A stretch of DNA of 64,000 bases from Candidatus Saccharimonadota bacterium (GTDB lineage Bacteria > Patescibacteriota > Saccharimonadia > Saccharimonadales > UBA4665), in NCBI GenBank assembly GCA_028289245.1, contig JAQGGT010000006.1:270948-334947 (forward strand), in the 5' to 3' direction. Below are positions 21,008 through 26,474 of the stretch, piece after piece. Below the pieces are notes generated by a model. The model was given only the letters and a program-made list of their open reading frames with translations. It did no database searches and was not told the origin of the DNA. The position numbers and the translations under genes are program-made. Positions within the stretch are counted from its first letter, which is position 1, and every line of letters begins with the position of its first letter.

Positions 21008-22774
21008 TTAATCTTCGATAAAGCCACCCGATTGGCGCTTCCAGAGCCGCGAGTATAACTTGTTGGTGGCAAGCAGCTCGAGGTGCGAGCCGTCTTCGAC
21101 GATCCGACCGTTATCGAGCACGATAATCCGGTCTAAGCTTTGGATGGTGCTCAAGCGGTGGGCGATGACGATAGTCGTGCGGCCTTTCATGAGCTCGGCC
21201 AGGGCCTTTTGAATGGCGGCCTCACTTTCGCTATCGAGGGCGCTGGTGGCCTCGTCTAGGATGAGCAGTGGAGCGTCTTTGAGGATGGCCCGGGCAATGG
21301 CGATACGCTGGCGTTGACCGCCGGATAGCTTGACGCCGCGCTCGCCGACAACCGTATCAAAGCCTTTGGGCAAGGCCTCGATAAATTCCAAAGCGTAGGC
21401 TTGCTGGGCGGCCCGCACGACTTTTTCGTGACTGGCTTTAGGTGCGCCGTAGGCAATGTTCTCGGCGATGGTGCGGTGGAAGAGCAGCGGCTCCTGAGGT
21501 ACGTAGGCGATGGCTTGGCGCAAGCTTTGTTGGGTGACTTCGGCGATCGACTGGCCGTCGATGCTGATGGTGCCGGCCTGGATATCTTCAAAACGAAGCA
21601 ATAGGCGCGATAAAGTCGATTTGCCCCCACCGCTTGGACCAACTAAACCAACCTTCTGGCCACTGGCAATTGTCAGCGACAGGCCGTCAAAGACAGTGTC
21701 GTGCTGAGCGGCATCTTGGTAGTGAAAACGAATATTGTCGAGCACGATTTCGCCGGCCGTCACGGTAAGTTGCGGGGCGCCTGGCACATCAACAACCTCA
21801 GGCGCTTCGTGATAGTAGCGTGTCATATCGCTAGCATCGAGCAGAGCATCTTCGACGGTCCGAAAAATTGTGCCGATATCAAACAAGCGGTTAGCCAAGT
21901 TGATGGCGTAGCTAAAGGTAAAGATACCGATAGCGAGCAGCCCCGGATCGCGTTTGACGAGGTGAATAATCAGCGCAATCATGGCAATCTCGAAAGCTAG
22001 CAGGACGCTAATGCGGCGCGAGCCCTGCTCGGCCACGCGCGTCCAATCCCGGCGGCGAAAAACAGCTAAGGCGTCACTCAGTTTTTGGCCTTGGTGGAGT
22101 TCCATCTGTTCGCGGGCGAAGGTTTTTACGGTTTGGCTATTGGTAATTGTGTCGGCCATGTGGGCCACCATTTTCTTACGGGCCTGGTGCCGCTCCTCGC
22201 GGAAGTCAGAGTTGTGAATGGTCTGCCACAAGGCCACGACGAGCACCGAAATAGTCATACCGCCAACCAGTAATCCCAGCAGGATGGAATGAACCACTAC
22301 AATCGCCGTGCCGACCACGATCGAGACCAAAAATGGCGCCACGTTAATAAACAGGTTGTTACTGAGTTGCAAGAAGGCTTGTGGGTACAGGGTGGCATCG
22401 GTGACTAACTTGCCGGCCACGCGGTTATTGTGAAACCCGACGCTGCGGTTGAGCATCGTTTCCAAGGCTTCTTTCTCGAGCGCGACCGCCGCCTTTACCT
22501 GCAAGCTAAATAGCGACCGGAAACCAATCCAGTTGAGCGTGACGCCGATAATCGCGCAAATCACCAAGTCGGGGATGTAATGCTCGGCGCGATCGATGTG
22601 GGTGCCGAGCGTACCGAGAATTTTGCCGATAAAGAAGGGAATCAACGTCGTTATAAATATAGCCTGGATCGGAATAAAGAAACTTAGCAAAGCCTCACTT
22701 CTGAAGCGCCACATGACGCTCCAGAAGTGCTTGATCGTTAGCTTATCGATGCTTTCGGTTTGCGCTTTACTCAT
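21008..22774 (-). CDS. ABC exporter, fused permease-ATPase (second subunit)
   Basis: A 588-residue half-transporter: six membrane helices in the first 320 residues and a C-terminal ATPase with Walker A GPSGGGKS, signature LSGGQRQR and Walker B LLILDEATSALDSE. The start overlaps the stop of the upstream ABC gene by 8 bases, so the two products probably form a heterodimer. Both ATPase sites keep the Walker B Glu. Substrate (lipid, peptide or drug) is unknown. Confidence 0.9.
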   Translation of the reverse strand: MSKAQTESIDKLTIKHFWSVMWRFRSEALLSFFIPIQAIFITTLIPFFIGKILGTLGTHIDRAEHYIPDLVICAIIGVTLNWIGFRSLFSLQVKAAVALEKEALETMLNRSVGFHNNRVAGKLVTDATLYPQAFLQLSNNLFINVAPFLVSIVVGTAIVVVHSILLGLLVGGMTISVLVVALWQTIHNSDFREERHQARKKMVAHMADTITNSQTVKTFAREQMELHQGQKLSDALAVFRRRDWTRVAEQGSRRISVLLAFEIAMIALIIHLVKRDPGLLAIGIFTFSYAINLANRLFDIGTIFRTVEDALLDASDMTRYYHEAPEVVDVPGAPQLTVTAGEIVLDNIRFHYQDAAQHDTVFDGLSLTIASGQKVGLVGPSGGGKSTLSRLLLRFEDIQAGTISIDGQSIAEVTQQSLRQAIAYVPQEPLLFHRTIAENIAYGAPKASHEKVVRAAQQAYALEFIEALPKGFDTVVGERGVKLSGGQRQRIAIARAILKDAPLLILDEATSALDSESEAAIQKALAELMKGRTTIVIAHRLSTIQSLDRIIVLDNGRIVEDGSHLELLATNKLYSRLWKRQSGGFIED

Positions 22775-24575
22775 CTATGAATCCACCTGATTGATGCGTC
22801 CATAGTTTAGCATAGGTGCCGGCAAGTTCGAGCAGCTCTTGATGGGTGCCTTGCTCAATGACGGCGCCAGCTTCCATAACGACAATACTGTCCATGTGCC
22901 AGAGGGTGCTGAGGCGATGGGCGATAGCAATGACCGTTTTGTGTTCCCACAGATTCTCGAGGCCTTCCTGGACCAGGAGCTCGCTCTCACTATCGAGGGC
23001 GCTGGTGGCTTCGTCGAGAATCAGGATTGGTTTGTCGTCGAGCATGGCCCGCGCAATGGCGATACGCTGGCGTTGGCCGCCGGATAGCTTGACGCCGCGC
23101 TCGCCAACGAGGGCGTCGTAACCGCCATCTACTTGCATGATGAACTCATGGGCGTGGGCCTGCTTGGCGGCTTCGATGATCTCCTCGCGGCTGACTTTGC
23201 GGTCTATGGCATAGGCAATGTTGTCGGCGATACTGCGGTGAAATAGGCTAGTGTCCTGCGGAACGTAGGACACAATACTGGCCACATCCTGGCTGTCGAC
23301 GGCCACGCCATCAACGGTGATAGCGCCCGGCGTGATCGGGTAGTAGCCCAACAGTAGTTTGGTAAGTGTAGTCTTGCCGCTACCGCTACGCCCAACGACG
23401 CCAACCTTCTCGCCCTTTTTTAACTCTAGTTTGATACCATCCAGCACCGCCGTGTCCGGCTTATCGGGATACGCAAAATCGAGTTCATTAAATGCCAACG
23501 CAGTCTCGAAAACCGGCTTTTGCCGCAGCGCTTCTCGGCGGGCGGCAATTTCACGGATGATGTTTACCGGGCCGAATAGGTAGGTGTGGGCTTCGTCGAT
23601 GCGAGCCAATTTGAGATTGAACTGAGACACATGCCATACCAGGTCCCATATGCTGGCAGTGAACAGCAGCACGGCCGTCATGACGGTGGTGAGATCGGCC
23701 AGCGATAGCTCTCCATGCAGAAACAGGTAGACGTTGAAGGCAATAGTCGCTGGCCAAATAACGTCCCGGACAAAAAATGACATGACCGACCAAAACACGA
23801 TGCTCCAAATGAATGAACGGGTATTGCTGGCAACTACTTTGTGCTGCTCGAGCTCAATAGTGTGGCCCTCATTGGCTTCCTTACGAAATGACTTAACATT
23901 CACAAAGTTAGCGATGACGTCTACCAGCTTACCGTTCTTGGTCGACTGGATGTCGGCAGCAGCTTTTTCGTATTTGGCACTGTTGCGAATGGCGTAACGA
24001 CCGGTGATGAACATCAACACTAAGCCAGCTATGAAGATGCCGCCAGTTTGCCAGTTGATGCTGGCAAAAATGAAGCCGGTAATTATGAGACTTACAAATG
24101 AACCGACATAGTCGTAAAGCGCATTGTCGAAAAATTGGCGCATTTCTTGGCCGATAGTCGTGATGTAGGATGAGATCTTACCGGTAAACTTGTCGACGAA
24201 GTATGGATAGGGCTTGCGGATAGTTTCGCGGAACAAAATTGTTTCGTATAGCGGAGCTAGGGGCATGATGAGCTTCATGTAGAGCACTTCACTGAAGCGC
24301 CAAAGGAAGTTATGGCCAGTACTGCAGGCAATCAGTACCCAGACCCAGATGACGGCATGGTGGCCCTGCATGGGGTGAGCCGACAGCGCGCCAATCAGCT
24401 TACCGATGAACAACGGTATGATGCCGAGCAGGATGTTGGCGATGACGAAAAAGAACGTCACGATAGCAAAGCGCCATTTGTATTGGCGCATAAAACTGAA
24501 AAATGACCGTAGCGAATAGTATTTCTTATCGCCGGGCTGCCGCTGGGGCTTAGGGGTAATTGTATGTGATGTCAT
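22767..24575 (-). CDS. ABC exporter, fused permease-ATPase (first subunit)
   Basis: A 602-residue half-transporter with the same layout as its downstream partner: membrane domain to about residue 330, Walker A GRSGSGKTT, signature LSGGQRQR and Walker B ILILDEATSALDSE. It is the first gene of the pair. An AGGAG ribosome binding site lies in the loop of an 8-bp hairpin directly before the ATG, which may set translation of the operon. Confidence 0.9.
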   Translation of the reverse strand: MTSHTITPKPQRQPGDKKYYSLRSFFSFMRQYKWRFAIVTFFFVIANILLGIIPLFIGKLIGALSAHPMQGHHAVIWVWVLIACSTGHNFLWRFSEVLYMKLIMPLAPLYETILFRETIRKPYPYFVDKFTGKISSYITTIGQEMRQFFDNALYDYVGSFVSLIITGFIFASINWQTGGIFIAGLVLMFITGRYAIRNSAKYEKAAADIQSTKNGKLVDVIANFVNVKSFRKEANEGHTIELEQHKVVASNTRSFIWSIVFWSVMSFFVRDVIWPATIAFNVYLFLHGELSLADLTTVMTAVLLFTASIWDLVWHVSQFNLKLARIDEAHTYLFGPVNIIREIAARREALRQKPVFETALAFNELDFAYPDKPDTAVLDGIKLELKKGEKVGVVGRSGSGKTTLTKLLLGYYPITPGAITVDGVAVDSQDVASIVSYVPQDTSLFHRSIADNIAYAIDRKVSREEIIEAAKQAHAHEFIMQVDGGYDALVGERGVKLSGGQRQRIAIARAMLDDKPILILDEATSALDSESELLVQEGLENLWEHKTVIAIAHRLSTLWHMDSIVVMEAGAVIEQGTHQELLELAGTYAKLWTHQSGGFIDE

Positions 24576-24577
24576 AG

Positions 24578-24598
24578 TACACCGCCTCCTGCGGTGTA
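24578..24598 (-). promoter_or_regulatory. Hairpin with ribosome binding site in its loop
   Basis: TACACCGC (24578-24585) and GCGGTGTA (24591-24598) form a perfect 8-bp stem around the 5-base loop CTCCT, which reads AGGAG on the transcribed minus strand, 10 bases before the ABC exporter ATG. It could present or hide the site, or be a protein-binding operator. Confidence 0.55.
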
Positions 24599-24769
24599 AG
24601 GGTTTGGTAGCTTAATTTTAAAAAGTTGTTTTGAGAGAGACTAGCTAACCGAAAGGACGGCTGTAGTCACAGGATACTTGTTGTTGCTGGTGTACATTTT
24701 GTGCCGCTCCGGGTTAAACGATGAGTAAATCACATCGTAATTGCTAAATGGTAATAGTTATAATATACT

Positions 24770-24847
24770 ATGAGTTTGCCCATAGCAAATAAAATCTTTC
24801 AAAATTATGGAATCGTCTCCTTCTTCTACAGAATCTTCTATCGGTGA
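24770..24847 (+). CDS. Possible leaderless leader peptide (25 codons)
   Basis: TATAAT (24759-24764) ends 5 bases before an ATG that opens a 25-codon frame running into the next gene in another frame. With this -10 box the transcript would begin at or next to this ATG. There is no homology support. Confidence 0.25.
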   Translation: MSLPIANKIFQNYGIVSFFYRIFYR

Positions 24848-26474
24848 AAAAACCGATAAGTCTAAGAGTAAAAAGAAAAGCGCCGAGGCCATCGGCAGCT
24901 TTGCGGTTCAACCGGAAGAAGTTGCGGCGCCGATTGCCGAGAAGCCGGAGCGCAGTATGTTCTTGGGCGGCGAGAAAAAATCAGTGCCCAAAACTGAGGC
25001 TGAACCCCTGGCGGCATTACCCGAGCTGAAACCTGGCGAACCGGTAGAAAAATTATCTGAGCAAGAAGCTACCGAGACAGTTCGGGCGTTGGCTGAAGCC
25101 CGGCGCCAAGAGCTGACCAGCGAAATCGAACCCGGCGACGACACGCAAGTCGCCGCCGACAGTGCCGCCGAAGCGTTTATCAAAAAGGCACAAACCAGTG
25201 GCGACCCAGAGGCAGCGGCGGCCGAAATTGCCGAGGAACTCGACCTAGACTTGGAGGCGATCGAACTACCGGATGATTCGGAAGAAGCTGAGCCGGACGC
25301 CGCCGCTGAAGTAGCCGATGACGACGAGGAAGAAGCCGAAGATGATCCCGCTCCAATCCCGGTGGCAGGATCGACAGGAGGTTCGGGTAGCGCAAGTGGC
25401 TCGGGTGGGACGAGGCCGCCCACACCGCCTTCACCGCCTTCACCGCCCACACCACCAACACCGCCGGTTGGACCACCACCTAGTGGCGCTGGTCGACCTC
25501 CCTATGTTCCGCTTGGCCGACTGCCGACCTTTGGCGGTTATGCGCCATCACCAGCCATTGCGCCAGCTAGCGCCTATCGTCCAGCGAATCCGGCTGAGTT
25601 GGCGGCTGCCGTGCGCCACGGCGAGGGTACTGGCCTAATTGTTGGGGGGATTGTTGGCTATCTGCTGGGCCGTCGCCGCGGCCGTATCAAAACCGAGAAG
25701 CGCCTCCTGCCTGTGCAGCATAAACTCGAAAAGCAAGTGCACAGCCTGGATAAACAACTGCGCGACAAAGAGTATCAAATCCGTCAGGCGGCGCAGGTCA
25801 AGTATAGCCGCGACCCGGCTGCCAGTGCTCAGGTCGCCGCCGAACGCCGCCAGGCCCGTCAAGCTGAACTTTTGGCTGCACCGCTGGCTGCCGTGGCGCC
25901 CGAACGCATCGGCCACGTCCTAGTGGCAGCCGAAACGCCGCTGCGTGCAGTAGCCCGTCGTCCAGAAACGGTGGTCGCCAAGCCCGTAGCGGCTGAGATA
26001 ACTCCGCAGCGCCGCGCCGAGAGTATGGATCGGTCGGAGCTCCTAGAAATGAGCGATAAAATTATTATCGAAGGAGCCAGCTTACGCCAGATCTATGAGA
26101 CGCACCTGGTAAGTGAAAAGGGTCTACGACGCTTGGTAGCCGAGCATTTAGCCGGTAAAGACGTTGTACGGGCTTTGCGCCGTGAACTTGTCGAGCGCGA
26201 AATTGATTTTGAACGTGACCCAATGCTTCGCGACCGCGCTCGCCGCAGCCTCAGCGGTGGCGGCAAGGGTGCCGTCAATAATCTGGTGCAGCAAGCGGCT
26301 GTGTTTGGTGACCCGGATGATGATGCGGCGATTATGGCGGGCCGCTCAAGCAGCCGTGCCAAAGCCGAAGCCGTCAAACAGGCTGCCCGTAAAAATATCG
26401 TGGCTGACGTCTCGCTGCTCACCGTCATCGCTATACTCACGGCGGTTATTATTCTTATTGCCGTCAACCGCTAA
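24807..26474 (+). CDS. Tail-anchored membrane protein with acidic and proline-rich regions
   Basis: A 555-residue protein. Residues 1-190 are acidic and probably disordered, about 205-225 is a Pro-Thr/Ser repeat tract, about 274-290 is a glycine-rich hydrophobic segment (GLIVGGIVGYLLG) followed by basic coiled coil (about 295-350), about 410-470 is a helical domain (SLRQIYETHLVSEKGLRRLV) that looks conserved, and a C-terminal membrane helix (533-552) ends the chain. I believe the helical domain recurs in Saccharibacteria, but cannot search. No ribosome binding site precedes the ATG. Function unknown. Confidence 0.65.
   Translation: MESSPSSTESSIGEKTDKSKSKKKSAEAIGSFAVQPEEVAAPIAEKPERSMFLGGEKKSVPKTEAEPLAALPELKPGEPVEKLSEQEATETVRALAEARRQELTSEIEPGDDTQVAADSAAEAFIKKAQTSGDPEAAAAEIAEELDLDLEAIELPDDSEEAEPDAAAEVADDDEEEAEDDPAPIPVAGSTGGSGSASGSGGTRPPTPPSPPSPPTPPTPPVGPPPSGAGRPPYVPLGRLPTFGGYAPSPAIAPASAYRPANPAELAAAVRHGEGTGLIVGGIVGYLLGRRRGRIKTEKRLLPVQHKLEKQVHSLDKQLRDKEYQIRQAAQVKYSRDPAASAQVAAERRQARQAELLAAPLAAVAPERIGHVLVAAETPLRAVARRPETVVAKPVAAEITPQRRAESMDRSELLEMSDKIIIEGASLRQIYETHLVSEKGLRRLVAEHLAGKDVVRALRRELVEREIDFERDPMLRDRARRSLSGGGKGAVNNLVQQAAVFGDPDDDAAIMAGRSSSRAKAEAVKQAARKNIVADVSLLTVIAILTAVIILIAVNR

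Follow-up and report, generated by a model that had tools for sequence, protein, structure and literature searches.

A candidate leader-peptide translational control element upstream of ABC exporters in Saccharibacteria

Why does the ribosome binding site of an ABC exporter gene lie in the loop of a perfect hairpin? The question is raised by a stretch of 64,000 nucleotides from Candidatus Saccharimonadota bacterium (assembly GCA_028289245.1, contig JAQGGT010000006.1, positions 270,948 to 334,947; the whole stretch is called the window below), where an inverted repeat surrounds the Shine-Dalgarno sequence (SD) of the first of two exporter genes. Comparison with related genomes indicates that this hairpin is the last part of a longer leader, and it is slightly more likely than not that this leader serves the ABC exporters of Saccharibacteria as a leader-peptide element of translational control. 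The architecture of the leader (a leader open reading frame (ORF), a hairpin between the SD of this ORF and its end, a G-poor linker and a hairpin locking the exporter SD) is well supported by these sequence comparisons. We further infer an inducer and an opening of the last hairpin, or lid, by translation of the leader.

Read from 24598 to 24578 on the minus strand, the DNA is TACACCGC-AGGAG-GCGGTGTA, with eight perfect pairs and a loop of 5 bases, and 10 bases separate AGGAG from the exporter ATG at 24575. Direct reading thus bears out the hairpin described by the first-pass annotation, which had been made from the letters of the window. The parts of the leader are the following:

24578..24598, minus strand: SD hairpin (lid), stem TACACCGC/GCGGTGTA, loop AGGAG; from direct reading and covariation over 41 leaders
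24585..24590, minus strand: exporter SD AGGAGG, with AGGAG in the loop and the last G in the stem
24599..24640, minus strand: linker from the leader stop to the hairpin, G-poor and likely unstructured
24641..24697, minus strand: leader ORF of 18 codons, MYTSNNKYPVTTAVLSVS-stop, with its own SD; last 7 codons conserved in frame over 41 leaders
24647..24661, minus strand: region 2, GCCGTCCTTTCGGTT, at the end of the leader ORF; pairs with region 1
24703..24715, minus strand: region 1, the leader SD AACCCGGAGCGGC, partner of region 2

The hairpin of the window exceeds chance. The dyad is the sole match at no more than 3 mismatches within the window, for 0.23 expected. Over the whole genome, the same search returns one exact copy and four matches with 3 mismatches, each on both strands (5 forward, 5 reverse), against 3 forward and 3 reverse matches for the reversed pattern taken as control. 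Perfect 8-bp stems as such are not rare: 20 with loops of 3 to 8 bases are listed in the window, nested copies counted, for a mean of 7.1 (range 1–14) in 30 Markov-1 simulations, none of which placed AGGAG or CTCCT in the middle of a hairpin. Furthermore, among SD-bearing starts of ORFs of at least 150 aa in the loci at hand, a hairpin with 6 or more contiguous pairs covers the SD in 19 of the 31 leader-bearing starts versus 9 of the 91 others. The perfect 8-bp hairpins of the window, more numerous than in the simulated sequences, occupy 14 distinct places, and some of them may be terminators.

The orthologues of the first exporter stand second in their operons, so that the DNA upstream of them is uninformative about the hairpin. 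A DNA search of the genus (6 genomes) matched the upstream region of the window in the genome G003 (E 3e-4, 72% identity), by a local alignment that starts inside the divergent neighbour and extends up to the ATG of the exporter. The hairpin of G003, CATCGC-AGGAG-GCGATG, shows a compensated C-G to T-A change relative to that of the window. A small SD-bearing ORF precedes the hairpin both in the genome of the window (MYTSNNKYPVTTAVLSVS-stop) and in G003 (MYTLPQMTSAVFVSR-stop), and the same arrangement recurs upstream of further exporters.

In total, 41 leaders were assembled, all from the same order. From 36 candidate rows, 30 leaders were kept after dropping those that were not the module (L017, L056, L060, both rows of L073 and the first row of L018); the new ones obtained after a covariance-model search brought the set to 41, the leader ORFs of L153 and L168 being set by hand. 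L035, which has an SD near the start and no ATG leader ORF, stands outside this set. The universal presence of a leader ORF in the 41 is no test, as they were partly chosen for having one. In the same way, some of the 30 leaders were found via hairpin patterns, and the tests were repeated on 19 leaders fetched by exporter homology alone. Searching 392 genomes of the order with the covariance model gave one match each in 35 genomes; 26 of these matches have E <= 1.6e-4 and are among the leaders preceding ABC exporters, and those in G089, G090, G091, G135 and G210 (E 0.005–0.01) lie outside the examined set. The candidate locus L132 (G106) gave no covariance-model match. Two marginal matches (E 0.002 and 0.007) were obtained in 379 genomes of the phylum outside the order, below the about four expected, and in the most sampled family (f34) the leader of the window was not seen upstream of the 18 exporters read.

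The evidence that carries the architecture is covariation, as measured by a permutation test comparing the duplex energies of native segment pairs with those of pairs swapped between species. Over the 41 leaders, this test gives z = -11.8 for the two arms of the lid and z = -8.8 for the leader SD and the ORF end (0 of 5000 permutations in both cases), versus z between -1.2 and +3.5 for eleven other segment pairs; the +3.5 belongs to the leader SD and the start of the leader ORF, whose pairing is avoided. The test leaves relatedness in, and the other segments, which are equally related, serve as its controls. In the 19 leaders fetched by exporter homology only, the two helices keep z = -7.6 and z = -6.3, respectively; therefore, the signal is not a product of hairpin searching. 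No third covarying helix was found, either among all 28 pairs of eight segments compared in the 30 leaders or among the thirteen pairs in the 41.

Pair counts agree with these results. In a 37-row alignment (A3), which was fitted to the structure and includes one false row, L026 (12.7-bit match), 79.5% of the cells are paired versus 66.7% after shuffling, and changes on both sides number 82 versus 29.2, while slid versions of the alignment pair at most 52%. In the unfitted alignment A2, of 12 rows, 78.2% are paired versus 73.2% (0 of 500 shuffles). The exporter SD has at least 4 expected local pairs in 32 to 38 of the 41 leaders, depending on the length of coding sequence included. With respect to a ligand riboswitch, whose mark would be invariant unpaired positions in a conserved aptamer, the conserved columns are mainly the SDs, the start and stop codons and the pairing partners. 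No Rfam family scores over its gathering threshold in a scan of seven loci or in the window segment 24500-24830, where two chance-level matches are seen at E <= 10 (snoU54, E 0.53; CRISPR-DR49, E 4.3).

The first-pass annotation had proposed to check covariation of the stem in homologous loci, and had taken stem bases lost beside a kept AGGAG as a sign against its reading. Once this check was run, compensatory changes were found: the identity of the stem bases is not conserved, but their complementarity is. Such changes support a structure and disfavour a sequence-specific protein site. An RNA structure at the start of the exporter gene, kept and covarying, thus stands, whereas nothing in these data points to the ligand, protein or temperature that had been suggested as its switch. 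Furthermore, the leader ORF and the second hairpin had been missed, and both point to control by leader translation.

The leader ORFs are 12 to 23 codons long and end with TAA in 32 leaders and TAG in 9. Their last 7 codons have an in-frame BLOSUM62 mean of -0.002 versus -0.646 and -0.517 out of frame; against a column-permuted null, z is 6.4 in frame versus 1.9 and 3.0 out of frame. The commonest end resembles A-A-F-x-A-C-stop, some of its places being taken by T, V or P, and C sometimes by R. The linker that follows has a core with 3.4% G in 37 of the 41 leaders, a value that excludes four leaders with linkers of at least 100 nt as well as the first 12 and last 34 nt; when only the last 38 nt are excluded, G amounts to 9.0% over 30 leaders. 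The figure attached to the linker of the window's leader is 27.0% G for the window. In the long linkers of L023, L025 and L039, an extra similar hairpin, about CYGGCAGYGTGAGCCRG, lies between the leader stop and the lid.

An ABC exporter gene is found directly downstream in 41 of 41 leaders; for 19 of them this results from selection by exporter homology, the other 22 being the window and loci reached through DNA similarity, pattern or model. Conversely, among 25 exporter loci (L010-L034), the module lies directly upstream in 14. L012 and L021 come later in their operons, the first genes of which (L130 and L164) have the module, and the module was not seen in the upstream stretch inspected for L011, L013, L019, L024, L027, L028 and L033; the stretches read do not include the upstream DNA of L017 and L031. 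In G003, from the same genus, the leader and the same neighbour genes are followed by a single exporter, with 39.6% identity to the second exporter of the window and 35.3% to the first. Because G003 has the same neighbours and a divergent exporter, the leader would have kept its location in the genome through a change of the exporter that follows it. Several other genomes have a first exporter and, after it, the orthologue of the window's first gene. The exporter genes of the window are:

22767..24575, minus strand: first exporter gene, 602 aa, ABC_membrane and ABC_tran
21008..22774, minus strand: second exporter gene, 588 aa, ABC_membrane and ABC_tran, overlapping the first by 8 bases

Among the best 25 NCBIfam matches of these exporters, there are only sub-cut-off ones, to many exporter families, so that "multidrug" is a guess.

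These observations suggest how the element could work. The last hairpin would act as a lid holding new 30S subunits off the exporter start, and ribosomes translating the leader, stalling in it or terminating at it would alter how often this lid opens. As a signal, a compound that the exporter removes may slow translation or arrest the nascent chain at the leader end. What the element most likely controls is exporter translation rather than termination of the transcript, since no Rho was found and terminator-like hairpins are few. Indeed, at E <= 1e-40, Rho was detected in 0 of 60 relatives (47 of them with a completeness of 90% or more and a contamination of 5% or less), including the genome of the window, and in 8 of 14 control genomes; the own genome gives only sub-cut-off matches, the best at 44 bits versus 509. 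Terminator-like hairpins occur in 3 of the 41 leaders and none lies inside the leader of the window; one is found in the early coding sequence of the exporter (24489-24471).

It should be emphasized that several results weigh against this explanation. Its main gap is the absence of a visible switch. No alternative pairing that would couple the leader to the lid was found (z = 0.28 for region 2 with the left arm, z = -1.17 for region 2 with the SD arm), and in partition functions, placing a ribosome at the start, in the middle or at the stop of the leader does not alter the accessibility of the exporter start (mean change below 0.01). A switch between regions 2 and 3 like that of erm leaders was thus considered and given up, as neither the permutation tests nor the ribosome-occupancy modelling support it. 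The leader stop lies 53-141 nt upstream of the exporter ATG, and therefore a ribosome stalled there usually would not reach the lid. The lid itself is not always predicted: in 29 of 41 local folds, an apical loop with 3 or more closing pairs contains the SD core, which in the remaining ones is partly in a stem unless the fold differs. In the window, the modelled hairpin competes with a fold into the exporter coding sequence. A 121-nt piece including 36 nt of coding sequence folds otherwise at minimum energy (z -1.53) and gives the 8 pairs a mean probability of 0.09; in the full leader the mean pair probability of the lid is 0.95 with 30 nt of coding sequence and about 0.5 with 60-90 nt. Changes in the leader ORF show no excess at third positions (0.563, 0.505 and 0.514 in the 27 leaders ending in C, R or S), so that RNA pairing may carry part of its conservation. 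Lastly, the leader is not universal: at stricter filters, the model has a match in 35 of 392 genomes of the order (4 of 6 in the genus), and a different RNA is associated with the exporters of the family sampled most.

Several mechanisms, within or beside control by leader translation, can be weighed against these data. In a doubtful elaboration of such control, the leader SD and the exporter SD would both be hidden, the exporter being unlocked across the G-poor linker by a ribosome that terminates or is arrested on the leader rather than by an alternative hairpin, as a relay without apparent Rho. The exporter could also require translation and termination of the leader with no drug-specific stalling, post-termination ribosomes staying on the RNA, travelling along the linker and opening the lid on arrival. 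Two independent hairpins lacking a mutual switch, the scarcity of G in the linker core, a leader C-terminus conserved up to the stop codon and the failure to find Rho in the 60 relatives are all in line with such re-initiation. However, it is here a proposal from sequence comparison and modelling, and a distance of 53-141 nt looks long for re-initiation, which makes it unlikely, if still worth entertaining. Region 2 could otherwise pair with either SD, a ribosome on the leader start freeing it to cover the exporter SD, or the reverse, as in ToiL. Its complementarity to the exporter SD arm is strong in general (native mean -13.2 kcal/mol), and occupying the leader start raises the pairs between region 2 and the hairpin to 16.7 in L124, 15.5 in L040 and 8.5 in L053, and from 15.3 to 18.7 in L116. 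This complementarity is nevertheless not species-specific (the z = -1.17 above) and would be expected anyway because both SDs resemble each other; the mean rise over 30 leaders is small (from 1.6 to 2.5 pairs), with opposite changes in L014 (12.3 to 3.2) and L039 (9.5 to 1.2). Competition of this kind is thus rather improbable.

Attenuation through Rho or a terminator, of the TnaC or BmrB type, would make the hairpin a bystander. A leader ORF ahead of an ABC exporter would agree with this, and 20 of 30 leaders show a pyrimidine-rich motif no more than 12 nt past the stop; a Rho-dependent variant was considered for this pyrimidine-rich, G-poor linker. The failure to detect Rho in the 60 genomes led to dropping the latter and, joined to the rarity of terminator-like hairpins in the leaders, leaves attenuation very unlikely. 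The least credible proposal takes the dyad for a DNA operator, at which a repressor would act on the exporter promoter. A perfect inverted repeat between a promoter-like site and a gene would suit this role. However, the dyad has a single exact copy in the genome, and its arms differ between species while AGGAG and the distance to the ATG stay. Furthermore, G-U pairs, which break a DNA dyad, fill 20 of the 231 lid-helix cells counted and occur in 19 of 41 local folds. The operator was rejected on these grounds, the dyad being neither conserved in sequence nor repeated.

Upstream of the leader, the window holds further candidate elements:

24720..24749, minus strand: ATTTAGCAA box (24741-24749) and small 5' hairpin (24720-24736)
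24760..24788, minus strand: promoter-like TTGCTA-17-TATTAT 5' of the leader, with 9 of 12 consensus bases; weak

Two promoter-like sites were found in this region for 0.9 expected. The ATTTAGCAA box sits just 3' of the likely -10 element, and a box-like motif is found near 21 of the 41 leaders. In some leaders, a variable 5' hairpin follows this box (z below -1.5 in 10 of 41 folds). The divergent neighbour encodes a 555-aa protein (24807-26474) with no Pfam or NCBIfam match, and a similar protein of 532 aa adjoins the leader in G003.

If control by leader translation is confirmed, one order of the candidate phyla radiation would have a leader-peptide switch present in many of its genera, probably fixed in its genomic location through a change of the exporter that follows. 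Should this switch also respond to antibiotics, it would reveal how such tiny bacteria detect compounds and turn on their export without recourse to Rho. Both the SD lid and the conserved end of the leader open this reading to direct tests. No description of this leader was found in the literature searched, whose coverage left out most subscription papers, and the element appears to be an exporter translation switch that had not been named before, in bacteria in which Rho was not detected.

Known systems share some of its features. In another family of the order, the MDR-NUDIX RNA (RF02918) also precedes homologous ABC exporters, related to that of G003: it is found at 7 of 10 exporter loci at E <= 3e-4, over the gathering score at five (L177, L185, L190, L187, L175) and below it at L188 and L174. 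It is a different structured RNA, with no match in the segment 24500-24830 of the window at E <= 10. The toiL upstream ORF of topAI in E. coli is likewise a small ORF before an occluded ribosome binding site, and senses translation stress (PMC12121999); unlike in toiL, the two hairpins found here are independent and Rho was not found. Attenuators of the erm type (ErmBL/ErmCL) have a short leader ORF, a main ribosome binding site held in secondary structure and a presumably translational output (PMC8274638; PMC4191407). As in erm and cat leaders, the present leader ORF bears an SD and the SD of the main gene lies in secondary structure, but no mutually exclusive pairing was found for a stalled ribosome to switch. 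Unlike in erm, the gene downstream is an ABC exporter instead of an rRNA methylase, and the leader SD is itself paired to the end of the ORF. The BmrB leader of B. subtilis bmrCD differs by its 53 codons and the terminator-like structure inside it (PMC4191407), whereas the present leader ORFs have 12 to 23 codons and only 3 of the 41 leaders hold terminator-like hairpins; according to the same source, BmrB is a leader ORF controlling a two-subunit ABC exporter, as is proposed for the present leader.
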